From NCBI GenBank assembly GCA_030429235.1, contig JAUIDB010000013.1, forward strand, positions 1-64,000: a stretch of 64,000 nt of DNA, given 5' to 3'. A program made the translations under genes and the position numbers. Source of the DNA: Thermoanaerobaculia bacterium (lineage in GTDB: Bacteria; Acidobacteriota; Thermoanaerobaculia; Multivoradales; JAIOJS01). This document shows positions 1 to 41,732 of this stretch, piece after piece. The first letter of the stretch is position 1. The number at the start of each line of letters is the position of its first letter. The notes beneath the pieces are model-generated. The model did not search any database, had not been told where the DNA came from, and was given only the letters and a program-made list of their open reading frames with translations.

Positions 1-927
1 CACGGCATAGTCGAAGACCGTCGAGTAAGCTCCTCCCGAGGCCCGAAAGTAGCTGATTTCCTGTCCCTCGCCGGGATGCCAGTACCGGTGGTGCGCCTGG
101 TCGTCCACGTCCCAGTAGTGGGTGCTGTTCATGCGCGGACGCCAAGCGAGGCGGGGGTCGTAGACAGTGTAGGTGTCGCGCAGACCCAACGGCTCGAAAA
201 CCTCCTGGACCAGCACCGACTCCAGGGGCTTGCCGCTGACCACTTCGACGATGGCACCCAGGGTGGCACTTCCAGCATCACTGTAGACGAACTCCCCCAC
301 CGGTCCCGAGGGCTCTATCGCCGGTAGATCCTCGACAGACTCCCGCAGACTGTTGTACTTGGAGCGATCCCGGGGAAAGGGACTGAAGGAGAGACCCGTG
401 GTGTGCTCCAGGAGTCGGCGCACTGTAACCTCTCGCCAACGCTCGGCGTCGAGGACCGGCAGAAAGTCCGAGGCGGGCGCGTCCAAGCTCAGCTCACCGC
501 GCTCGACGAGGCGAAGCGCTGCCGTGCCCAGCAACGGCTTCGTCATCGAACGGATCCGAAAGATGCCCGCCGGTTCCAAGGCCGCTCGTGTCTCGAGATC
601 GCGAACTCCGAAGACCTCGTGCCAGGCGATCTGGCCGCTCTTCACGACCAGGACCTCGGCGCCGACGACGGTCCCCTCCCCTACCCAGGTCTCCACCTGA
701 TCCCCCAGGCGTCTGAAGGTCTCCTCGGAGAAGCCCAGCGACACCGGTGGTCGGTACGGAAAGGGCGCCTGTGGATGGGACGTCACCTGCTGCCGGTGGA
801 CGGGTTCGGCGTGGGTTGGAAGAGCGGTCCCCAGGCCGAGGCCGAGGCTCAGAACCAGGGCCCGGAGCGCCACGCGTCGCCAAGTGGCACCGGGGCCCGG
901 TGGATCGACAGCTTCTGGGTGGAGCAT
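1..927 (-). CDS. serine hydrolase, beta-lactamase / class C family (C-terminus cut by window edge)
   Basis: Reading the minus strand from ATG at 927 gives 309 codons open to the window edge. An N-terminal hydrophobic stretch (about residues 15-35) ending in a THA-like cleavage site predicts export. The SxxK catalytic motif is visible as SMTK, followed by an HTTGL segment and a YSD triad in the position of YxN, as in class C beta-lactamase / esterase EstB / DD-peptidase relatives (PF00144). These are periplasmic serine hydrolases, most often esterases or peptidases rather than true beta-lactamases. The substrate cannot be inferred. The last catalytic box (HxG/KTG) lies outside the window. A strong promoter sits directly before the start. 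Confidence 0.85.
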   Translation of the reverse strand, partial: MLHPEAVDPPGPGATWRRVALRALVLSLGLGLGTALPTHAEPVHRQQVTSHPQAPFPYRPPVSLGFSEETFRRLGDQVETWVGEGTVVGAEVLVVKSGQIAWHEVFGVRDLETRAALEPAGIFRIRSMTKPLLGTAALRLVERGELSLDAPASDFLPVLDAERWREVTVRRLLEHTTGLSFSPFPRDRSKYNSLRESVEDLPAIEPSGPVGEFVYSDAGSATLGAIVEVVSGKPLESVLVQEVFEPLGLRDTYTVYDPRLAWRPRMNSTHYWDVDDQAHHRYWHPGEGQEISYFRASGGAYSTVFDYAV

Positions 928-9207: not shown

Positions 9208-9351
9208 GGGATCCAGCCGCACGAGACAGAGTGGCGAACCGAAGGGATCCACGGGGACCTGGTCGACGCCGAGTCGGCTAGTTCTGGAGAGACGATCCCC
9301 CGAGGCACCCAGGATCCTTTCAGGGCTCGGCAAGAGCGTTAGGATCCGCAG

Positions 9352-10449
9352 GTGCCGTCTTTCACCACCGTTCTAGGGCTCGTCGGGGCCCTCCAAGGCC
9401 TCATCCTGGCCCTGGCCATCGCCTCGGTCCCCGGCTCGACCCGACGACCGAACCGCGCCCTGGCCCTGGTGGTGTTCACCCTGGCACTGGCGGTGGCGGC
9501 GATCACGATCGATCACTCCGGATTTCTAGGCCCACCGGGCTCCTCCCGCTGGGCTGTACTGCCGATTCTCCTAGAGCACAGCGCCACCTTCCTCTTTGCT
9601 CCGGCCTTCTGGCGCTACACGCTACTGGTACTAGGGGAGCGGCCTCGGATCCCGATGTGGGTCCACTGGTTCCCGTTCCTGCTCTGGTCTGCCTACCTGG
9701 CTGGATTCACTCTGGGCTGGACGACATGGCGATGGCTCCCCCCGATTCTGGGCGTCTTGACGTATCTGATGGGCTACACCATCGCGGTCGCACTACGGGT
9801 CTGGCGGCGAGGACGAGAGGCCAAGACCCTCGTGCATCACGTTCAGGTGCTACGCCTGGTGGTGTATTCCCTGGTACTGCTCCATCTAGCGCAAGCAACA
9901 CGGTACGTCGGTAGGGACGTCGCGGCGCTGACCGATGTCGTGCCGCTGACCGCGACGCTCGGGATCTGCCTGATCGCTGTCTTCTCGTTCCGACAGTCCA
10001 GACTCTTCGCTGGTTTCGAAGCGAGCCCCGTGGGCCGCAAATACGCGAGTTCGACGCTCACCGAAGAGGGAGCTGCCGAACTCGCCAACCGGCTGCAAGA
10101 GCTTCTCCGCGAGGGCAAGCCTCACCTGAACGAGAGCCTGACTCTCGCCGATCTCGCGCAGCGCCTCAAAGTCCCTCGCGCTCACCTCTCCCAGGCGATC
10201 AACGACAACCTGGGAACCACCTTCGCCGAACTGATCCGTCGCCACCGCGTCGAGGATGCCGAACGACTGCTCGCAGACCCAGCGTTCGACCACCTCACCG
10301 TCGAGTCGATCGGCTACGAGGTCGGCTTCGGGTCTCGATCGGGTTTCCACTCGGCGTTCAAGGGGCTAAGAGGCATAACGCCCGCCCAGGCGAGGGCGCA
10401 ACTGTCTCCAAACGCGTCGAGCGACACCCGCGAGACCCACGACCGCTAG
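9352..10449 (+). CDS. AraC-family transcriptional regulator with N-terminal multi-helix membrane domain
   Basis: 365 residues from GTG 9352. The first about 220 residues contain seven hydrophobic segments, and the last about 105 form a double helix-turn-helix AraC domain (MTLADLAQRL-type first helix, then the conserved GFGSRSGFHSAFK second motif). This layout is a membrane-embedded sensor joined to a DNA-binding domain, so regulation would occur at the membrane. The amidohydrolase gene 49 bp downstream on the same strand is the likely target or partner. A TAGGAT box at 9340-9345 ends 6 nt before the GTG, suggesting a leaderless mRNA. Confidence 0.85.
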   Translation: MPSFTTVLGLVGALQGLILALAIASVPGSTRRPNRALALVVFTLALAVAAITIDHSGFLGPPGSSRWAVLPILLEHSATFLFAPAFWRYTLLVLGERPRIPMWVHWFPFLLWSAYLAGFTLGWTTWRWLPPILGVLTYLMGYTIAVALRVWRRGREAKTLVHHVQVLRLVVYSLVLLHLAQATRYVGRDVAALTDVVPLTATLGICLIAVFSFRQSRLFAGFEASPVGRKYASSTLTEEGAAELANRLQELLREGKPHLNESLTLADLAQRLKVPRAHLSQAINDNLGTTFAELIRRHRVEDAERLLADPAFDHLTVESIGYEVGFGSRSGFHSAFKGLRGITPAQARAQLSPNASSDTRETHDR

Positions 10450-25941: not shown

Positions 25942-26726
25942 GGAGAAACCCCCGTCTCGGGACAGTTCGCTCGGTAACCGGCCGGCTCCTCGTGGGCGGC
26001 GAGTTCGCCGCGCAGGGGCTCCTCGACCACCAACTCCCAGGCCAACTGCCGTCCCCCGTCGCGCTGGGACAAGCGCCCACCCTTGGCCTCACGCCGCCAC
26101 CACCAGGTAGGTCGCCCCCCCTGAAACAGGGTCCAGCTGCGCAACACCTCACGACCGTCCAGGAGGGCGGTCCAGCGGCGACCGATCGCGTCCTCGAACT
26201 CGAGTCGGGTTCCGCCGCCCTCCACCGGCAGTCGGCGTTCGGAGGATCGAGCTCCAGCGCCGCCGGGAAGAGCCCCCAACAGAATAGCCGGTAGAGCGTC
26301 CAATCGGATCGGCCCGTCGCTCCACCCCGGTAGTTCCACCGCCGCGGATCCACGACAGAAGCTGGCGGCATCGTCGTCGATCCACAGGGCACGACCGCGA
26401 TCGACGTCGAGAGCCCAGTGCCTCTTCCCTCCCCGATCGAGGGCGCTGAGTTGGAAGCGGTAGGCCGACTCGAGCTTGAGCGTCAGGCGCAGACCGATCT
26501 CCCCCTCGGGCCCGTCGTAGCGCAGGCGGTAGAGCTGCTGCTGGCCGAGTGCCGCGCTCGGAAGCTCCCACGCGGCAACCCGAAGCGGCCCTTGATCGAC
26601 TACCGCTGCGGCGCCGGCGCGGGGTGGTGCCTGGGCCGTACACCCCCCGAGGAGTCCCAGGATTCCGAGGGCAACCAGCGCGACTCCGCCGTGGTGACCC
26701 CATGGCTGACGCCTGTCCAGCCTCAG
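25938..26726 (-). CDS. LolB-like outer-membrane lipoprotein with apparent CTG start
   Basis: The frame encodes a lipoprotein signal (hydrophobic run then lipobox LLGGC at about residues 26-30) followed by about 230 residues of beta-rich sequence (YRLRYDGPEGEIGLRLTLKL, YRFQLSALDRGGKRHWALDV). This resembles LolB or DUF-type outer-membrane lipoproteins; the ispE neighbour is lolB in many Proteobacteria, which supports the call. No ATG, GTG or TTG exists upstream of the signal in this frame. CTG at 26724-26726 forms a CTGA overlap with the stop of the upstream TPR gene and gives a complete signal peptide, so I place the start there (262 residues). A GTG at 26339 would delete the signal and half the domain. 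Confidence 0.65.
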   Translation of the reverse strand: MRLDRRQPWGHHGGVALVALGILGLLGGCTAQAPPRAGAAAVVDQGPLRVAAWELPSAALGQQQLYRLRYDGPEGEIGLRLTLKLESAYRFQLSALDRGGKRHWALDVDRGRALWIDDDAASFCRGSAAVELPGWSDGPIRLDALPAILLGALPGGAGARSSERRLPVEGGGTRLEFEDAIGRRWTALLDGREVLRSWTLFQGGRPTWWWRREAKGGRLSQRDGGRQLAWELVVEEPLRGELAAHEEPAGYRANCPETGVSP

Positions 26727-28630
26727 CGATCGACCCTCGAAACCGCCTTCTCGACCTGGTCGAGCTTGTCCTCGACCTGGCCACGATCGTCGAGACCGTC
26801 CAAGGCCAGCGCCTTGCGGTAGGCCTCGACCGCTCGATCGTGATCCCCCAGGGCGAGGTAGGCATCGCCCAGATGATCGAATACGGTGCCGTCGTCGGGC
26901 TCGAGCACCGAGGCTCGCTTCAGGTGCGCCAGCGCCACGTCGTAGTCACCGAGCTTGTAGTACACCCAGCCCAGGGAGTCGATGTAGGCCCCGTTGCTCG
27001 GCGACAGGCCCACCGCCCGTTGCACGAGTTCCAGCGCCTCGTCCAGGTTCTCTCCCTGCTGGGCGTACATGTAGCCGAGGTAGTTCAAACCGAGATGGAA
27101 GTCCGGGTACCGCCGCACGAGTTCCTTGAACTGACTCTCGGCCTCGACCACCCTACCGGTCCGTTCGTAGGCCGCACCGAGCCAGAACCGAGCCTGCAGA
27201 GACTGCGGATTCTCGTCGACCATCTGGACGAGCAGCGGGATGGAGTCTTCGAAGCGACCGAGTCGTTGGTACAACTCGACCACGTGGTCGGGCGGCTCGA
27301 GCCCCTCGAGCTTGGCTCGCGCCTCGGCATCCCGCCCCAGCCGGAAGAGGATCTCGGCGTGCTTCGCCACCAGCTCGGGGCCCGCCACGATGCCCCCGTC
27401 GAGCAACGCCTGGAAGGCCGACTCGGCTTCCTCGGGACGATCGAGGCCGAGCAGAGCGTCGACCCGGATGAGCGACGCGACCCGTCGCATCCCCTCGTCG
27501 GATGCCTGCTGCAGGGCGTCGGCCTGCGCGAGAGCCAACTCCCAGCTGTCGTCGGCGGCGAGAATCTGGGCCAGCTCCATCCGCACCCGGTCGGCTCCCT
27601 CGCCGTCGCCGAGCGCGGTCAGAGTCTGATCGAGGGCGCGGCTGGCGTCGTCGAAGCGGCCGGCCTCGGAGAACATCCGCGACAGACTCAGCGCTACCTC
27701 AGGGTCCTCGGGCAACTCGGCGTGAAGACCCTGCAGACTGGCCAGGGCATCCTCGCTGCGCCCGATCTCTGAGAGCAAGAGGGCGTGGAAGAGCCGCAAC
27801 CTGGGACTCGAGTCTCGCGACAGAACCTCCTCCAGGGCCGAAAGCGCGGCGTCGGGCTCGCCCGAGCGATACAACTCGACCGCTACCCGGCGTGCCAGTT
27901 CCTCGTTCTCGGCGGCTCCTCCTGGCGCCTCCATCAACACCCGGGCCGCCTCGGCGTGGTTCCCCGCCTCGGCCAAAAGATCGGCCAGCGTCAGCCGCAT
28001 CTCGAGCTCCTCCGGAGCCACCACCAGAACCTCGGTCAGCAGTTCGATCGCCTCGTCGCTCTTGCCTTGGTCGAGATACAGCTGCAACAGCACGCTGGCC
28101 GTCCTCGGGCCGGGTTGCAGGGTGGCGATGCGCTGGAAGTAGAGCTCGGCCCCGGCGAGATCGCCGCGGCGCTGGTGCAGACTTCCCAGAATGTGCAGGG
28201 TCTCCAGGTCCTCGGGCTGCAACTCGAGCAGTGCCTCGAAGTGCTCCTCTCCGCGCTGCCCTACCTCGGCGTCGCGCTCTCCGAACGCCACCAGGACCCG
28301 AGCGGCACCGTCGAGAACGTCGGGATCTCGAGGCGCCAGGGCGACCGAACGGTCGGCATGGGCTACGGCGGGTTGCATGCGGCCGATCCGCAGATTGGTC
28401 TCGGCCAGGACCAGATGGACGTAGGCCTCGTCGGGCTCGGCCCGTACGGCCCGCTCCAGGGCTTCCAGTGCCTTGGCGTAGTTGCCCTCCGCCAGCAGCA
28501 GCTTCCCCAAGGCGAAATCGTAGGGAGCCGTCGGAGGCTCCACCGGTTCGGGAACCGCGACCTGAGCCGGGGCGGCGACAGAACTCAGCCAGAGCAGACC
28601 AGAAAGTGCGGCGATCAGGCGCTTCTCCAT
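26723..28630 (-). CDS. exported tetratricopeptide repeat protein
   Basis: 635 residues from ATG 28630, which begins with a signal peptide (residues 1-22, ending PAQA-like). An upstream extension of 37 residues lacks this. The rest is almost entirely TPR/TPR-like helices, about 15 units, including canonical ones near the C-terminus (YIDSLGWVYYKLGDYDVAL, VFDHLGDAYLALGDHDRAV). No enzymatic domain is seen. It is probably a periplasmic scaffold; co-transcription with the LolB-like lipoprotein suggests a role in outer-membrane biogenesis. A leaderless-type promoter precedes it. Confidence 0.9.
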   Translation of the reverse strand: MEKRLIAALSGLLWLSSVAAPAQVAVPEPVEPPTAPYDFALGKLLLAEGNYAKALEALERAVRAEPDEAYVHLVLAETNLRIGRMQPAVAHADRSVALAPRDPDVLDGAARVLVAFGERDAEVGQRGEEHFEALLELQPEDLETLHILGSLHQRRGDLAGAELYFQRIATLQPGPRTASVLLQLYLDQGKSDEAIELLTEVLVVAPEELEMRLTLADLLAEAGNHAEAARVLMEAPGGAAENEELARRVAVELYRSGEPDAALSALEEVLSRDSSPRLRLFHALLLSEIGRSEDALASLQGLHAELPEDPEVALSLSRMFSEAGRFDDASRALDQTLTALGDGEGADRVRMELAQILAADDSWELALAQADALQQASDEGMRRVASLIRVDALLGLDRPEEAESAFQALLDGGIVAGPELVAKHAEILFRLGRDAEARAKLEGLEPPDHVVELYQRLGRFEDSIPLLVQMVDENPQSLQARFWLGAAYERTGRVVEAESQFKELVRRYPDFHLGLNYLGYMYAQQGENLDEALELVQRAVGLSPSNGAYIDSLGWVYYKLGDYDVALAHLKRASVLEPDDGTVFDHLGDAYLALGDHDRAVEAYRKALALDGLDDRGQVEDKLDQVEKAVSRVDR

Positions 28631-28636
28631 GGCGGC

Positions 28637-28665
28637 AGAATAGCAGCGCCCGCAGTCAGTGACAA
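28637..28665 (-). promoter_or_regulatory. strong sigma70-type promoter of the TPR-lipoprotein-ispE operon, leaderless
   Basis: On the minus strand TTGTCA (28660-28665), an exact 17-bp spacer and TATTCT (28637-28642) are followed by GCCGCC and the ATG. The predicted transcription start coincides with the start codon. Confidence 0.6.
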
Positions 28666-28726
28666 CCAGCTCCGGGCTCCCAATGCGGCGAGGATTGCCG
28701 ACCAGCACACCCATTTTTCGAGGCCA

Positions 28727-28732
28727 TAGAAT
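28727..28732 (+). promoter_or_regulatory. -10 box of the CatA-like gene
   Basis: TAGAAT ends 7 nt before ATG 28740, with no Shine-Dalgarno sequence between. No good -35 hexamer is present at 16-18 bp. It faces the divergent promoter of the TPR operon. Confidence 0.4.
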
Positions 28733-28739
28733 CGTCGAC

Positions 28740-29363
28740 ATGACCCGAACCGTCGACCTGGACCAGTGGCCCCGACGCGCCGCGTACGAGTTCTTTCGTG
28801 GCTACGAGCAGCCCTTCTTCTCGGTTACGGTGGAACTCGACGTGACGGCTCCCTACGCGGCCAGTCGCTCAAACGACGGCATCGGGTTCTTTCTACGAGC
28901 CGCGCACCGCACGCTGCGCGCTCTGCAGGAAGTTCCCGAGTTGCGATATCGGATGCGCGGCGACCGAGTCGTCGAACACCCAGTCATCCATCTCGGAGCC
29001 ACGGTCTTGCGTCCAGATGACACCTTCGCCTTCTGTTTTCTCGACTACTCCACCGACCTCGAGGACTTCGCCGAAGCCGCTCGCTACCGACTGGAGGATG
29101 CGAAACACCGCTCCGACTGGGCGGTCCAGGACGGCGAACGAGACGATGTCGCCTACCTGACCACCCTCCCCTGGATCTCGTTCACCAGCTTCGACCATGC
29201 CTACCGACAGCCGGGCGACTCGGTGCCTCGCTTGGTGTTCGGCCGACACCGAGCGTCGGGGGGCCGCCGCCTGATGCCGTTCTCGTTGTCGCTGCACCAC
29301 GCTCTGGCCGACGGCATCCACGCCGGTCGTTTCCTCGAGCACCTGGAAGAGTCGATGCGCTAG
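28740..29363 (+). CDS. chloramphenicol-acetyltransferase-like O-acetyltransferase
   Basis: 207 residues from ATG 28740, close to the family's 210-220. The CAT fold (PF00302) is recognisable: an N-terminal RRAAYEFFRGYEQPFFSVT, the central DTFAFCFLDYS and the catalytic loop HHALADGIHAGRF with the active-site His. These trimeric cytoplasmic enzymes transfer acetyl from acetyl-CoA to a hydroxyl group. Chloramphenicol as the natural substrate should not be assumed; many chromosomal homologues act on other substrates. The stop overlaps the convergent HExxH gene by 4 bp. Confidence 0.88.
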   Translation: MTRTVDLDQWPRRAAYEFFRGYEQPFFSVTVELDVTAPYAASRSNDGIGFFLRAAHRTLRALQEVPELRYRMRGDRVVEHPVIHLGATVLRPDDTFAFCFLDYSTDLEDFAEAARYRLEDAKHRSDWAVQDGERDDVAYLTTLPWISFTSFDHAYRQPGDSVPRLVFGRHRASGGRRLMPFSLSLHHALADGIHAGRFLEHLEESMR

Positions 29364-30611: not shown

Positions 30612-33077
30612 TCAACGACTCGCGATCAACTCCTCGAGCTCCGCCACCGCGCGGCGGTTGCGGCGGATCACTTCGCTCTCGGCGGGCAGTCTGGACTGGC
30701 GGATCTCCAGGGCTCGACGAAACAACGCGAGGGCTGCCGTCAAGTCCCCGCGCTCCCGCTGCACCTGGCCGAGGCTATCGAGAGTCGCCGCCAGGGTCGG
30801 ATGATCGAGTCCCAGGGCCGACGCGAAGATCGTCTGGGCCCGCCGCAGCGAGTCGTCTGCCTGATCCAGGTCGCCCCGACGAAGGGCCAGCTCGCCGAGA
30901 TTGTGTACTACGACCCCCACGCGGCGGTGCTCGAGACCCAGCGCTGCCTCCCAGATGGCCAAAGCCTCCCGCATCGGCGGCTCCGCCAGCTCGAGCCGAC
31001 CGGCGAGGAGATAGGCTTCGCCGAGGTTGCTGAGACTCTGTCCCAGATCGGGATGGCCGGCCGGCAGAACCTGTCGGCGGATCCTCAGGGCCTCTTCCGC
31101 CAACGCGATACCCTCGTCCCAGCGATCCAGCAGGAAGTAGTTGATCGCCGTGGTGTTGGAGCTGACGGCAACCTCGGGGTGGTTCGCTCCCAGCTGATGC
31201 CGCCGAATCTCCAGTGCTCGCACCGAGTATTCGAGGGCCTCTTGCGGGCGGCCGGCGTCGACGTACAGCACTGCGAAGTCATCGAGACTCGCCGCCGTCG
31301 CCAGGGAGTCGGCCCCGGTCGTGCTCTCACGAAGTTGCAAGGCTTCCCGCAGGACGAACTCGGCCCGGTCGAAGTCGGCCCGAGCACCATACACCGACCC
31401 GAGATCGTCGAGGATCGACGCCAGCCGTGCGGGGTCGGGAGCCTCTTCGCTGCGGATCAAAGCTAGCGCCCGCTCCAGGAGGTGCTCGGCCGCTTCGTAG
31501 TCGCCCGCCAGCCAATGGTGGTGGCCGAGCCGTTGTACGCTGGCGGCCACCAGCGGGTGGTCTGGCGGCAGGTGAGCTTCACGCAGCTGGAGCGCCTCCT
31601 CGAGCAGCGGCCGTCCTTCCGCCACCAGGCCGAGTTGCTCGTAGACGCGGCCCATCGTATCGAGCAGTCGGGCCCGAGGCAGCGGTTGCCCCTCGAGCCG
31701 ATCCTGAATCTCGGCCGTCCCCCGATCGAGCATCTCCCGCGCCGTGATCGAAGCTCCTAGCGACTGGTGGGGATCGGACTGACGGAAGAGGTCGACCAGG
31801 AAGTCGACCACCTCCTCGGCCTCGATGGCAGCTCGTTGGGCGGCGGCAGCGGCGGCATTGGCCCGCCGGGCCTCGGCGGTGCGAGCGACGACGCCGGCGG
31901 CCAACGAGAGCAGGAGTAGGCTGGCCGCGACCACAGTGCCGCGCCGACGCCGCACGAACTTCGTCAGGCGGTACCAACGCCCGGGGGGACCGGCCTCGAC
32001 CGGTTCGTGGTTCAGATGGCGTTCGAGATCCGCGGCCAGGGCCGCGGCCGAGTCGTAGCGACGCTCGCGATCGCGGTCCATGGCGCGAGCCACGATCCAG
32101 TCGAGATCGCCCCGCAGTCGCCGAAGGTGCACGGCCGCCGTAGTTCCTCCCCGCAGCGCGGCCCGCTCTCCCTGCGCCTCCGGCTGTAGTCCTCGCCAGA
32201 GTGCGCTGGGAGTTGGCGCCTCTTTCTCGCTGATCTCCCGAAAGATCGCGAGGGCGCTCGAACCGCGCCGACCGAAGGGTCGGGAACCGACCAACAGTTC
32301 GAAGAGCAGAACCCCGAGGGCGTAGACATCGGTTCGCGTGTCGATCTCTTCGCGATTGGCCAGAGCCTCGGGGCTGACGTACGAAGGGGTGCCCACGACC
32401 ACTCCGAGTTCCGTCATCGGCGCATCGCCGTCGTCGAGGAGCTTGGCGACGCCGAAGTCGATCAGCTTGGGCAGCGGGACCCCCTCGGGTTCTGCAATCA
32501 GAATATTGGCGGGTTTGATGTCTCGATGCAGCACACCCTTCTGGTGTGCGTGCTGAACCCCCTGACACACCGCTACCACCAGACGCAGTCGATCCTCCAC
32601 CGAAAGGCCGCGAGCGTCGCAGTAGCGATCGATCGGCTCTCCCTGCACCAGTTCCATGGCGATGTAGGGCTGGCCGTCCGGGGTGTCTCCGGCCTCGTAG
32701 ACCTGTGCGATCGCTGGATGGGTCATACGGGCCAGCGCCTGCCGCTCGGCCTCGAAACGGTGGCGCGCCGCGGCGCTCGATACCGTGGTCCGAATGACCT
32801 TGATCGCTACCTCGCGTCGGATCGGTGTTTGCTGCTGGGCCTGGTACACCGTGCCCATACCCCCCTGTCCCAGGCGCTTCAGGATGCGGTAGGGACCGAG
32901 CCGAATCGGTGTCGCGAACGCTTCGACCGCGGCCTCGTCGGGGCCACTGCGGACGTAGTCGCCGAAATCGGTGACGTCGCGACTGGTGGGATCGTCCTCG
33001 GCCTCGGCGCTACGGCGGGGGCGAGAGACCAGCGTCTCGTCCGGCTCGTCCTTGCCTTGCTGATCCCGTTTCGACAT
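30612..33077 (-). CDS. Ser/Thr protein kinase with transmembrane helix and C-terminal TPRs
   Basis: 821 residues. The kinase domain (about 62-350) is complete: glycine loop GQGGMG (70-75), Lys93, HRD 184-186 with IKPAN, DFG 207-209, then GTPSYVSPE. A transmembrane helix lies at about 381-399. The remaining 400 residues form TPRs of the kinesin-light-chain type (repeated LRxxxLGxxHPxVA units). The architecture is typical of bacterial PknB-like kinases in Acidobacteriota and Myxococcota: cytoplasmic kinase, one membrane pass, then TPRs outside, probably for ligand or partner sensing. The targets are unknown. Confidence 0.94.
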   Translation of the reverse strand: MSKRDQQGKDEPDETLVSRPRRSAEAEDDPTSRDVTDFGDYVRSGPDEAAVEAFATPIRLGPYRILKRLGQGGMGTVYQAQQQTPIRREVAIKVIRTTVSSAAARHRFEAERQALARMTHPAIAQVYEAGDTPDGQPYIAMELVQGEPIDRYCDARGLSVEDRLRLVVAVCQGVQHAHQKGVLHRDIKPANILIAEPEGVPLPKLIDFGVAKLLDDGDAPMTELGVVVGTPSYVSPEALANREEIDTRTDVYALGVLLFELLVGSRPFGRRGSSALAIFREISEKEAPTPSALWRGLQPEAQGERAALRGGTTAAVHLRRLRGDLDWIVARAMDRDRERRYDSAAALAADLERHLNHEPVEAGPPGRWYRLTKFVRRRRGTVVAASLLLLSLAAGVVARTAEARRANAAAAAAQRAAIEAEEVVDFLVDLFRQSDPHQSLGASITAREMLDRGTAEIQDRLEGQPLPRARLLDTMGRVYEQLGLVAEGRPLLEEALQLREAHLPPDHPLVAASVQRLGHHHWLAGDYEAAEHLLERALALIRSEEAPDPARLASILDDLGSVYGARADFDRAEFVLREALQLRESTTGADSLATAASLDDFAVLYVDAGRPQEALEYSVRALEIRRHQLGANHPEVAVSSNTTAINYFLLDRWDEGIALAEEALRIRRQVLPAGHPDLGQSLSNLGEAYLLAGRLELAEPPMREALAIWEAALGLEHRRVGVVVHNLGELALRRGDLDQADDSLRRAQTIFASALGLDHPTLAATLDSLGQVQRERGDLTAALALFRRALEIRQSRLPAESEVIRRNRRAVAELEELIASR

Positions 33078-36611: not shown

Positions 36612-39230
36612 TCAACCGAGGCGCTTCTGAAGGCTGTGTAGGAGGTTGAGGGCAGCGAGAGGCGTCAACTCTTCGATATCGAGTTGGCGGATGACCTCGG
36701 CCACGACCTCGTCTTGCGGCGCGAAGAGTTGCAGCTGCGGCGCCGCGGCGGTGGGTGGGGCCTCACTGCCCTGAGCCAGCCGAGGACGTCCCTTCGGGTC
36801 GTACTCCTGCGCCTCGAGGTTGGCCAGAATCTCTCGGGCGCGTCGAACCAGACTGTCCGGCAGACCGGCCAGCCGCGCGACGTGGATGCCGTACGACTTG
36901 TCGGCCGATCCCGGCACGACCCGACGCAGAAAGACGATCTGGTCCTGCCATTCCTTGACCGCCAGCGTACGGTTGACCACCCCGGGAAGCATGGACGCGA
37001 GTTCGGTGAGCTCGTGGTAGTGGGTGGCGAAGAGGGTCTTGGGCCGCCGGTGCTGCTGGAGGTGCTCGACGATGGCCCAGGCCAACGAGAGGCCGTCGAA
37101 GGTCGCGGTACCCCGCCCCACTTCGTCGAGGATAACCAGGGAATCCTCGGTCGCGTAGTTTAGGATCCGGGCCGTCTCGATCATTTCGACCATGAAGGTC
37201 GACTCGCCGCGCGCCAGGTCGTCGCTGGCTCCTACCCGCGTAAAGATACGATCGACCAGGCCGATTTCGGCCTCTTCGGCGGGGACGAAAGAACCGGCCT
37301 GGGCCATCAACACCAGGAGGGCCGTCTGCCGCAGGTAGGTCGACTTACCTCCCATGTTGGGCCCGGTCAGGACGATGATCTGCTGACCCTCGGCGTCGAG
37401 CTCGAGATCATTCGGGACGAAGGCCTCATCGGTGAGCGCCTCGACCACCGGATGTCGGCCCTCGGAGACCGCAATCGCGCCTCCCGCGGGACCGAGCCGG
37501 GGTCGGGTGTACCGTCTTCGCGCCGCCACTTCGGCGAAGGAGGCCAGGACGTCGATCTGCGCAACGGTGGCCGCCAGTGCGAGGAGGCCGGTCGACTGCA
37601 CCGAGATCCTGGCGAGCAGTGCGGCGTAGTGTTCGTCTTCGAGGGCGAGTTGGCGCTCTTCGGCCCCCAGGACCTGTTCTTCGAGTTCCTTGACTTCCGG
37701 AGTGATGTAGCGTTCGGCGTTGACCAGCGTCTGCTTGCGGATGTAGTGCTCCGGCACCAAGTGCTGATTGGCCTTGGTGACCTCGAGGTAGTACCCGAAG
37801 ACCTTGTTGTAGCGAATCTTCAACGACCCGATGCCGGTCGCCTCGCGCTCCCGCGCTTCGAGGGCGAGGATGTGCTGCTTGCTATCGCGCGCCAACGACC
37901 GGTTGTGGTCGAGTTCGTCGTCCACGCCAGCGGCGATGACCCCGCCCTGCTTGCGGCTCGCCGGTGGTTCTTCGACCAGCGTCTTCTCGAGGTCCGCGAG
38001 CAGCGCCGGCAGGGGATCCCGAGAGGCGAGGGCGCCGAGCAGTGGCGCCGGGGTCGACTCCAACTCGGCCAGGAGGCGAGGAGCCCGGCGCAGACAGTCA
38101 CGCAACGAATCGGCCTCTCGGGGCCCCAGTGAACCCAACACGGCGCGGCTGGCCAGGCGTTCCAGGTCGGCGAAGCCATCGAGCAGTTCGCGAACCCGAT
38201 TCCTCAGCCCCGTGCCCGTGAGTAGGGCCTCGACCGCGTCGTAACGTTCGATGATCCGCTCGCGGTGGCGCAGTGGCCGACGCAACCAATCGCGGAGCAG
38301 ACGCCCCCCCGCCGCCGTTCGCGTCCGGTCGAGTACGGCCAGCAGGCTGCCACGGCGCTTGCCCTCACGCAGGGTCTTCAAGACTTCGAGGTTGGCTAGA
38401 GTCGTGGGATCGAGGACCAGGTTCTCGGCGCTATCGCGGACTTCGAGAGTCCTGACGTGGGAGAGATCGGAGCGCTGGGCCTCCTGGGCGTAGAGCAGCG
38501 CCATCGCCGCCGCCCGCAGCACCGGTTCGGTCGTCTCCAATCCGAAGCCCTTCAGGGTTCCCACCTCCAGCTGCCGCTCCAACAGCTGGGCCGCCGCACG
38601 GGGATCCGGCTGCACCTCGGGATCCAGGACCGTGTGACTGACGCCACGGCGGTGCAACCACTCCTTCACCGTCTCCGGCAGGGAGCCGGCCGGCGCGATG
38701 ACCTCACGGGGACGAAGCACCTCGAGTTCCTCCTCGGCCTCCGCCGCCGAGGTCCAGCGCCGCAAGAAAAAGCGGCCCGTCGAGAGATCGAGGAAAGCAC
38801 CGGCCACTCTCTCCTCTTCGGTCACCAGGGCCGCCAGGAAGTTGTCCTCCTCGCCATCGAGGAGCGCTGGTTCGCTCAAGGTACCCGGCGTCATCACCCG
38901 GGTCACCTCCCGTTTGACCAGACCCTTGGCCTCCTTGGGGTCCTCGACCTGGTCGCAGATCGCGACCTTGAAGCCGCGCTGGAGCAGCTTGCCCACGTAC
39001 CCCTCGAGCGCGTGGTGAGGCACGCCGCACATCGGAGCCTCCGACGGCGTTCCCTTCTGGCGCGCGGTGAGAGTCACCTCGAGAATCGGGGCGGCCGTCT
39101 GGGCATCTTCGTAGAAAAGCTCGAAGAAGTCGCCCATACGGTAGAAGACGATGGCATCCGGATGGTCCGCCTTGACCTCGAGGTAGTGCCGCAACATCGG
39201 CGTCAGTTTGGCGGGCGCGGCGGGAGACAT
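36612..39230 (-). CDS. mutS: DNA mismatch repair protein MutS
   Basis: 872 residues from ATG 39230. A 105-residue upstream extension reads Arg/Pro-rich antisense sequence and is not part of MutS. The mismatch-binding N-terminal domain has FYRMGDFFELFYEDA with the Phe-x-Glu reading pair, and the ATPase has GPNMGGKSTYLRQ, a DEVGRGTATFDGL Walker B and ATHYHEL. It recognises mismatches with MutL; mutL is not in the window. A perfect TATAAT lies 9 nt before the ATG. Confidence 0.97.
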   Translation of the reverse strand: MSPAAPAKLTPMLRHYLEVKADHPDAIVFYRMGDFFELFYEDAQTAAPILEVTLTARQKGTPSEAPMCGVPHHALEGYVGKLLQRGFKVAICDQVEDPKEAKGLVKREVTRVMTPGTLSEPALLDGEEDNFLAALVTEEERVAGAFLDLSTGRFFLRRWTSAAEAEEELEVLRPREVIAPAGSLPETVKEWLHRRGVSHTVLDPEVQPDPRAAAQLLERQLEVGTLKGFGLETTEPVLRAAAMALLYAQEAQRSDLSHVRTLEVRDSAENLVLDPTTLANLEVLKTLREGKRRGSLLAVLDRTRTAAGGRLLRDWLRRPLRHRERIIERYDAVEALLTGTGLRNRVRELLDGFADLERLASRAVLGSLGPREADSLRDCLRRAPRLLAELESTPAPLLGALASRDPLPALLADLEKTLVEEPPASRKQGGVIAAGVDDELDHNRSLARDSKQHILALEAREREATGIGSLKIRYNKVFGYYLEVTKANQHLVPEHYIRKQTLVNAERYITPEVKELEEQVLGAEERQLALEDEHYAALLARISVQSTGLLALAATVAQIDVLASFAEVAARRRYTRPRLGPAGGAIAVSEGRHPVVEALTDEAFVPNDLELDAEGQQIIVLTGPNMGGKSTYLRQTALLVLMAQAGSFVPAEEAEIGLVDRIFTRVGASDDLARGESTFMVEMIETARILNYATEDSLVILDEVGRGTATFDGLSLAWAIVEHLQQHRRPKTLFATHYHELTELASMLPGVVNRTLAVKEWQDQIVFLRRVVPGSADKSYGIHVARLAGLPDSLVRRAREILANLEAQEYDPKGRPRLAQGSEAPPTAAAPQLQLFAPQDEVVAEVIRQLDIEELTPLAALNLLHSLQKRLG

Positions 39231-39239
39231 CGGGGCAGG

Positions 39240-39245
39240 ATTATA
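39240..39245 (-). promoter_or_regulatory. -10 box of mutS, near-leaderless
   Basis: On the minus strand TATAAT is followed by 9 nt and ATG 39230; no Shine-Dalgarno sequence lies between. The -35 hexamer is weak. Confidence 0.45.
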
Positions 39246-39346
39246 GCCATCCCACCGGTGAGCCGACTCGGTCGTGGAGGCCCGACGGCCCCTCGCGGCG
39301 CCGCGATGAAGCGAGTCGTCGACCGCCCGGCCGGGCGGACGCTCTC

Positions 39347-39352
39347 TATAAT
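39347..39352 (+). promoter_or_regulatory. -10 box of tsaB-rimI, leaderless
   Basis: A consensus TATAAT ends 6 nt before ATG 39359, predicting transcription from the start codon itself. No good -35 hexamer was found. Confidence 0.5.
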
Positions 39353-39358
39353 CCCGGC

Positions 39359-40033
39359 ATGGCTCTGGTTCTCGCCTTCGATACGACTGCCCCGGACCTG
39401 AGCGTGGCCCTGGCTCGAGACGGAGAGTTGTTGGCCGAGGCCGGCGCCCCCCAGAAGGCTGCCAGCAGCCGGTTGCTGGGGCTGATCGACGAGGTTCTGG
39501 AACGCGGTGGCGTCGACCGTACCGACCTCTCGGGTTTGTTGGCACTTCGGGGACCGGGCAGCTTCACCGGCATCCGCATCGGCTTGGCCACGGCTCTGGG
39601 TATCCACCAGGCGGCACAGATTCCCGCCACCGCGGCTACGACCCTAGAAGTTCTAGCCACGGATCGGGGGCTTCCCGCCAGCGATGCCGAAACCAGGGTT
39701 CTCACCCTGATCCACGCCCTCCGCGAGGACTGGTACAGCCAACTCTTCGCCGTCACCGCAGGAGCGGCGGTGCCGCTCGAACCGCCGGTCCGGCGGTCGG
39801 CTCCAGAGCTGTCCGCTCTGGCTTTCGATCGGGCCATCGCGCTAACCGGTCCTCGACCCGGATCACCGCCGATCCCTGCGATCGAACCGGCGCCGCCGGC
39901 CCGAAGCGCCGCGCTGGAGTCCAGCCTGAGACCCCCGTCCTGGGACCCGGGGCTGCTTTCACGCCCGCTCTACCTCGCCCCTCCGCCGGCCACTCTTCCC
40001 GGTCCGCCCAAGGCGGTTCGCCCCCTGTCTTGA
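39359..40033 (+). CDS. tsaB: tRNA threonylcarbamoyladenosine biosynthesis protein TsaB
   Basis: 224 residues. N-terminal ASKHA-fold motif LAFDTTAPDLSVAL and the TsaB signature GPGSFTGIRIGLATA. TsaB partners TsaD and TsaE to make t6A37 in ANN-decoding tRNAs; those partners are not in the window. The last about 50 residues are Pro-rich and diverged. It is coupled to rimI by a TTGA overlap (40030-40033), a common tsaB-rimI pairing. Confidence 0.92.
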   Translation: MALVLAFDTTAPDLSVALARDGELLAEAGAPQKAASSRLLGLIDEVLERGGVDRTDLSGLLALRGPGSFTGIRIGLATALGIHQAAQIPATAATTLEVLATDRGLPASDAETRVLTLIHALREDWYSQLFAVTAGAAVPLEPPVRRSAPELSALAFDRAIALTGPRPGSPPIPAIEPAPPARSAALESSLRPPSWDPGLLSRPLYLAPPPATLPGPPKAVRPLS

Positions 40034-40729: not shown

Positions 40730-41090
40730 AGGCCTCCTAGCTTGACTCGGACGTCATCATTGCAACCCCCCACGCTGGGCGGTTCGGGCTGAGAATCACA
40801 GAGGACGGGTGGAATGGAGGACGGGTGCAGGGAGAACGGAGCGCGTCGGACGGAAACACCACGCAGAGCGGTAATCTCGCTACTCCTCGCCTCGCTGGAC
40901 AGCTCCCCGGTGCGCCGAACGCACCCTTCCGCCGGCAACGTCGGATCGGTTTCTGGGAGGTGTCGTCCACATGTCTGTTCTGTGACCCTACTCTAGCACA
41001 GCCGACCGAGGTCCTGCCGAACGGCGCGAGCTGACAACCCGGAGCCGAGGGAGCGTTCCGATCGGGCAGTCCCGCTGCTAGAATCAGCGG
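40730..41090. other. 361-bp intergenic region between DUF465 gene and psd
   Basis: No convincing gene. It contains an 11-bp direct repeat GAGGACGGGTG at 40801-40811 and 40817-40827, and the psd promoter at its right end. A long open frame on the minus strand through psd (40737-41822) is antisense shadow. Confidence 0.5.
41056..41084 (+). promoter_or_regulatory. promoter of psd-pssA, extended -10, leaderless
   Basis: TTCCGA (41056-41061), a 17-bp spacer ending TGC, and TAGAAT (41079-41084) are followed by 6 nt and ATG 41091. The TGn before the -10 would compensate for the weak -35. Confidence 0.5.
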
Positions 41091-41732
41091 ATGCGTTTCG
41101 CCAAAGAGGCCTGGCCTTTCGTCGCTCCGTTCTCCCTCCTCGCCCTGGCTCAGCTGCTGCGTGGCAAACCGAAGTCCGCACTGGCGGCCGCCACCGCCGG
41201 AACCGGCGTATTGCTCTTCTTCCGCGATCCCGATCGCTCGTTCCATGGCGACTCGGAAACCGTGATCGCACCGGCAGACGGTCTGGTCACGGCGATCGAC
41301 CGGATCGAGGATGCCGCCCTGGGACCGGGCGAGCACCAGAGAATCGTGACCTTCCTCTCGGTGTTCGACGTCCACGTGCAGCGCTGTCCGGTGGCGGGGC
41401 GGGTCGTGACCTCCGACTATCGTCCCGGCCGCAAGGTTGCCGCGTTCGTCGAAGATATCGACCAGTACAACGAGGCGCACCTCACAGTCATCGAGCAGGC
41501 CGATGGCAGCCGGGTCGGAATCCGTCAGATCGCCGGACTGCTGGCCCGCCGCGTGGTGAACTACCTGGCCTTCGGCGACGAGGTGCACCGCGGCCAGCCC
41601 CTCGGATTGATCAAGTTCAGCTCTCGCGTCGATCTCCTGTTCCCGGCCGACTGGGAAGTCCTGGTGCGCAAGGGAGACCGCCTGCAAAACGGCGCAACTC
41701 CGGTGGCCCGCCCCCCAGAGGACGGGAGCTGA
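41091..41732 (+). CDS. psd: phosphatidylserine decarboxylase, short type
   Basis: 213 residues, matching the short Psd form found beside pssA. FFRDPDRSF, APADGLVTAID and the FLSVFDVHVQRCP block with the active-site His are present. The pyruvoyl-forming site, usually GS in IKFGSRVD, reads IKFSSRVD (Ser177-Ser178), keeping the reactive Ser but replacing the preceding Gly. It converts phosphatidylserine to phosphatidylethanolamine at the inner membrane. It is followed 22 bp later by pssA. Confidence 0.93.
   Translation: MRFAKEAWPFVAPFSLLALAQLLRGKPKSALAAATAGTGVLLFFRDPDRSFHGDSETVIAPADGLVTAIDRIEDAALGPGEHQRIVTFLSVFDVHVQRCPVAGRVVTSDYRPGRKVAAFVEDIDQYNEAHLTVIEQADGSRVGIRQIAGLLARRVVNYLAFGDEVHRGQPLGLIKFSSRVDLLFPADWEVLVRKGDRLQNGATPVARPPEDGS

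Follow-up and report, generated by a model that had tools for sequence, protein, structure and literature searches.

Boxes next to the start codons

Does a -10 box placed immediately before a start codon mean that the gene is transcribed without a leader? The question is raised by a stretch of DNA, here called the window, which comprises bases 1-64000 of a 136-kb contig from an uncultured, Acidobacteria-like bacterium with a genome of 4.85 Mb in 92 contigs. According to the original prediction, seven genes in the window carry such a box 6-9 nt before the start codon, and none of them has a Shine-Dalgarno (SD) site. The elements and genes concerned are as follows.

1-927, minus strand: beta-lactamase-family serine hydrolase gene (PF00144), cut by the contig end
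934-939, minus strand: -10 box of the serine hydrolase gene, TAGCAT, with a 6-nt gap to ATG 927 and a -35 element TTGACA at 956-961
9340-9345, plus strand: box TAGGAT of the AraC-type gene, doubtful, 6 nt before GTG 9352, with AGGA at SD distance
9352-10449, plus strand: AraC-type regulator gene (PF12833), leaderless status doubtful
26723-28630, minus strand: TPR-repeat protein gene (Pfam TPR models), proposed leaderless, its start backed by the conserved box and the -35 element
28637-28642, minus strand: -10 box of the TPR gene, TATTCT, with a 6-nt gap to ATG 28630
28660-28665, minus strand: -35 element of the TPR gene, TTGTCA, spaced 17 bp from the -10 box
28727-28732, plus strand: -10 box of the CatA-like gene, TAGAAT, with a 7-nt gap to ATG 28740
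28740-29363, plus strand: CatA-like O-acetyltransferase gene (chloramphenicol-acetyltransferase-like; PF00302, CatA-like models below their cut-offs), proposed leaderless
36612-39230, minus strand: mutS (MutS equivalog models above the NCBIfam cut-off), proposed to have no leader or one of about 0-3 nt
39240-39245, minus strand: -10 box TATAAT of mutS, 9 nt before ATG 39230
39347-39352, plus strand: -10 box TATAAT of tsaB, 6 nt before ATG 39359
39359-40033, plus strand: tsaB (TsaB equivalog model above the NCBIfam cut-off), divergent partner of mutS, proposed leaderless
41079-41084, plus strand: -10 box of psd, TAGAAT, with a 6-nt gap to ATG 41091
41091-41732, plus strand: phosphatidylserine decarboxylase gene psd (PF02666), proposed leaderless in its own genus

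When boxes, spacings and starts are read from the sequence, all seven boxes are found where they had been placed, 6-9 nt before the start codons. The gap is 6 nt for the serine hydrolase, TPR, tsaB, psd and AraC genes, 7 nt for the CatA-like gene and 9 nt for mutS. The hexamer TATAAT occurs only twice in the window, before tsaB and before mutS. The statement that SD sites are lacking throughout holds for five of the seven genes, which have no SD 4-mer within 20 nt, and fails at the AraC gene, where the box itself includes an AGGA that starts 11 nt before the GTG; the leaderless status of this site is doubtful. The CatA-like gene has a GAGG, which lies upstream of the box and would therefore be absent from a leaderless transcript.

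It is very likely that the boxes belong to sigma-70-type promoters whose -10 element lies close to the coding sequence, giving leaderless transcripts that are read by the leaderless route. With a housekeeping -10 box adjoining the coding sequence, transcription would start on the start codon or at most about 3 nt before it, and the resulting mRNA would have no room for an SD sequence and would be translated by the leaderless route. Leaderless-type genes would mostly be the first in their transcription units and would coexist with SD-bearing genes. What we infer here is where the 5' ends actually lie, that the main sigma factor is used, and that translation takes the leaderless route.

Enrichment of the box across the genome

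Boxes were counted in a genome sample of 784,321 bp, made up of the window and 40 further stretches, which together cover about 16% of this genome. Gene starts were predicted from codon usage and start-codon type with the upstream sequence ignored, which gave 658 genes at 88% coding; the 617 with a standard start codon and 60 nt of upstream sequence were counted. A box was scored as TANNNT with a spacer of 6-10 nt to the start codon, and dinucleotide shuffles, 200 for the genome sample and 500 for the window, served as controls. The called starts are imperfect, since the serine hydrolase gene was missed and the TPR start was called at 28714 rather than 28630.

In the window, 8 of the 61 called genes have a box (shuffles: mean 1.1, maximum 5). 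These are five of the seven proposed sites and three weaker boxes, the other two sites being lost from the count owing to the two errors of the gene caller. A weak TACCAT box lies next to a gene (30612-33077, minus strand) whose product, according to Pfam, combines a protein kinase domain with a long TPR array. The genome-wide scan against shuffled controls, which had been set beforehand as the test, gave the enrichment at the expected spacing: 91 of the 617 genes have a box, while the shuffles gave 10.7 ± 3.2 with a maximum of 22. After subtraction of the background, which amounts to about 11-16 boxes over both kinds of control, shuffles and control positions, some 12-13% of the genes, or about one in eight, appear to be of the leaderless type. 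TATAAT is found eight times in the 784,321 bp, five times 6-11 nt before an ATG; the remaining three (L114:18020, L116:2244 and L149:3321) are not closely followed by an ATG, and a search for tRNA genes behind them found none. A scan that used no gene calls, in which TANNNT had to be followed by an ATG opening at least 100 codons, showed peaks at spacers of 6, 7 and 9 nt (38, 24 and 23 cases, against about 8 elsewhere). The peak at 6 nt would place the transcription start on the start codon.

These figures bear on two other explanations. The boxes might have arisen by chance, as AT-rich words that catch the eye in a sequence of 66% G+C; the seven sites were indeed hand-picked, about 16 of the 91 boxes are expected from control positions, and single weak boxes such as that of the AraC gene may be accidental. 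However, the counts in both the window and the sample exceed the highest of the shuffles, the peak is specific for distance even when no genes are called, and boxes are conserved in relatives (see below). As an account of the whole set, chance is refuted, and it retains almost no credibility.

The boxes could also be ordinary -10 elements of leadered mRNAs whose true start codons lie further downstream. The starts are predictions, the N termini in relatives differ by several codons, and the gene caller itself picked another start for the TPR gene. Still, the gene-free profile and the starts called from codon usage agree on a peak at 6-7 nt, and the gap between box and ATG of mutS is 8-9 nt in most relatives that have the box, which makes downstream starts highly improbable as the general explanation.

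Character of the signal

The consensus of the box is TA[G/T][A/G][A/C]T, with the G of an extended -10 element at 62 of the 91 genes and TG at 26. The -35 signal is weak genome-wide and clear at the TPR gene. Boxes are found at 42 of 156 divergent starts compared with 10 of 193 starts that lie within 30 nt of a co-directional gene. This distribution bears on a further reading, in which an upstream gene ends near the next start and its stop codon supplies the TAG or TAA seen in the box. Eight of the 91 box genes do have a co-directional neighbour that ends within 20 nt, but 42 of them are divergent, and it is the close co-directional genes that have the fewest boxes. For most sites the stop-codon account is thus refuted by the orientation of the genes, and its probability is negligible.

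SD words occur at the usual distance before 270 of the 617 genes (44%), but they are largely confined to genes without a box (263 of 526, versus 7 of the 91 box genes), as expected from the original prediction; 263 of the 617 genes have neither SD word nor box. The calculated pairing to the 16S tail is also weaker at the box genes (medians -3.9 versus -6.9 kcal/mol, p = 3e-14). No 16S gene was found in the genome's own assembly, and the anti-SD sequence is intact in the three relatives from the order whose 16S 3' end was readable. With SD words at many genes and the anti-SD intact in relatives, the genome most likely uses both leadered and leaderless starts. The mixed expression that had been predicted is thus well supported on sequence grounds, by the box enrichment, the SD words at other genes and the intact anti-SD in relatives.

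An AT-rich box need not be a promoter element; on a leadered mRNA it might instead mark the site for the ribosome, either as a binding signal other than SD or through low structure. An AT-rich ribosome-binding site has been described in the FCB group (PMC9581028), and the genes with neither SD word nor box make up more than a third of those counted here. A ribosome signal would, however, be needed equally at internal operon starts, where the box is rare, and at divergent starts, where it is enriched. The TANNNT hexamer, its fixed spacing and the extended -10 G also speak against such a signal, as does the -35 element that the TPR gene keeps at promoter spacing. We regard a ribosome signal as very unlikely, and favour promoters giving leaderless transcripts.

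Conservation of the individual boxes

The comparison took, gene by gene, the 30 best-matching loci from a set of 59 genomes; it therefore covers about half of these genomes, and the own genome was excluded from the counts. The sets are smaller where the N terminus failed to align (28 relatives for the TPR gene, 25 for the CatA-like gene). Boxes at spacers of 6-11 nt were compared with four control ranges using identical starts; for the TPR gene several candidate starts were permitted per locus, in the controls as well. The box of mutS is kept in 25 of 29 relatives (control ranges 1, 3, 0 and 5), that of tsaB in 22 of 29 (2, 0, 0 and 0) and that of the TPR gene in 27 of 28 (1, 1, 3 and 3). This conservation across the order strongly backs the proposed leaderless starts of mutS, tsaB and the TPR gene.

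The psd box is found in two of 29 relatives, one of them a genome of the same genus (control ranges all 0), and the CatA-like box in 7 of 25, which is near the control (1, 1, 2 and 4) and includes the same-genus relative. The support for a leaderless start is weaker for these two genes, where the box is present in the same-genus relative and not in the order at large. The AraC box is present in one of four relatives. The best matches of the serine hydrolase are 31-38% identical, and box conservation was assessed for the other six genes.

In the mutS/tsaB region (39228-39361) the two genes form a divergent pair with leaderless-type promoters back to back. A tsaB match was obtained in 56 genomes; as read from the match tables, 45 of these have mutS and tsaB on a single contig in divergent orientation, some with a separation of only about 60 nt. 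Judged by MutS, the nearest named relative is the Acidobacteriota MAG OFTM223, with 66% identity; other named Acidobacteriota among the matches listed are around 50%.

The TPR gene also retains its -35 element. Of the 28 relatives, 19 have TTGT at a distance of 16-18 bp from the box, compared with 0-2 relatives for each of four other spacings, and the same-genus relative has the arrangement TTGTAC-17-TATTCT-6-ATG. In relatives (L213-L241, L272-L298), the -35 region of this gene is an eight-base word, TTGTAAAG, which, read from positions, occurs with a -10 behind it in one copy per genome in 18 genomes; the own genome has TTGTCACT in the corresponding region (28660-28665). As TTGTAAAG exceeds the length of a -35 hexamer, it could be bound by a regulator. 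Counted together with a following -10, the word gave 27 matches in 23 of the 59 genomes, 18 of them at the TPR gene (again read from positions), and none in the own genome. It was rejected as the mark of a regulon on this distribution, which looks like that of one promoter.

A more far-reaching proposal is that, in a fixed set of genes of the order, selection maintains the leaderless start for a role in regulation: the boxes of the divergent mutS/tsaB pair and of the TPR gene persist across many families, and those of other genes come and go. Mismatch repair and t6A tRNA modification might then be controlled together by conditions that favour leaderless translation. We consider this unlikely.

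Occurrence in other genomes

With the same pipeline Escherichia coli K-12 was negative (5 of 135 genes; 12.2 at control positions), while Deinococcus radiodurans MP1 was positive with a similar signal (15 of 123; control 3.6). Among six relatives the signal is present in G163 (26 of 160; control 4.2), G023 (16 of 143; 4.0), G047 (13 of 154; 2.2) and G007 (11 of 150; 3.6), and there is little or none in G022 (5 of 118; 3.4) and G161 (12 of 119; 9.8); most, not all, of the sampled relatives thus have it. A count over 149 genomes of the phylum, made genome by genome, compared TAKAMT 6-9 nt before ATG with the reversed pattern, which is a rough control. The own genome gave 124 against 47 for the reversed pattern. 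The count was at least twice the control in 51 of the 149 genomes, above it at p < 0.001 in 69 and below it in 27. Families f43, f23 and f11 exceed the control four- to fivefold, and families f32, f42 and f40 are below it. Judged from these pattern counts, a box before the ATG is a widespread but patchy trait in the phylum.

The position and sequence of the boxes, their statistics, their conservation and the intact anti-SD in relatives are established directly. Set against the leaderless explanation are the generally weak -35 signal, the psd and CatA-like boxes that are not conserved in the order, the SD-like word at the AraC gene and the two relatives, G022 and G161, with little or no signal.

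Comparison with known systems

The mode of expression is already known in other bacteria and in the organism's own phylum, and the understanding of how leaderless expression works is unchanged by this analysis. What is new here is modest, namely the conservation of the box at the level of the order at mutS, tsaB and the TPR gene, and the absence of such conservation at psd and the CatA-like gene. Leaderless architecture can apparently persist at particular genes, such as these three, across families and turn over at others, and gene-start annotation in this lineage should allow leaderless starts. Among the hits listed by a literature search on Acidobacteria, Acidobacteriota, Acidobacterium and Thermoanaerobaculia, with most subscription papers outside its scope, none appears to report mapped leaderless transcripts for the lineage. 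SD types are treated in a separate paper (PMC10783764).

In Deinococcus, TANNNT next to the open reading frame has been tested experimentally as a promoter -10 element; the -35 element was helpful but not required, and about one third of the D. radiodurans genes were reported to be involved (Zhong et al., 2025; PMC12340547). The present genome resembles Deinococcus-Thermus in that TANNNT adjoins the open reading frame and in that the same pipeline gives a similar share for D. radiodurans MP1. It differs in belonging to another phylum, and in that the conclusions there come from experiments and those here from sequence alone.

The closest counterpart is the class of TA-led genes described by Zheng et al. 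(2011; PMC3160421), defined by a TANNNT some 12 bp ahead of the start codon and by the lack of an SD sequence. The motif and its position, the missing SD, the SD-led genes alongside and the dinucleotide-shuffle test are the same. Here TANNNT is at that position at all seven sites, the excess over shuffles and the SD-led genes alongside are both present, and SD words are rare at the box genes overall, though one is present at the AraC site. The authors report TA-led genes in three of three acidobacterial genomes, on average 13.3% (9.7-19.4), a range within which the share of about 12-13% found here falls. The genes described here are thus of the same kind, with the difference that they come from an uncultured order and that the conservation of their boxes has been followed gene by gene.
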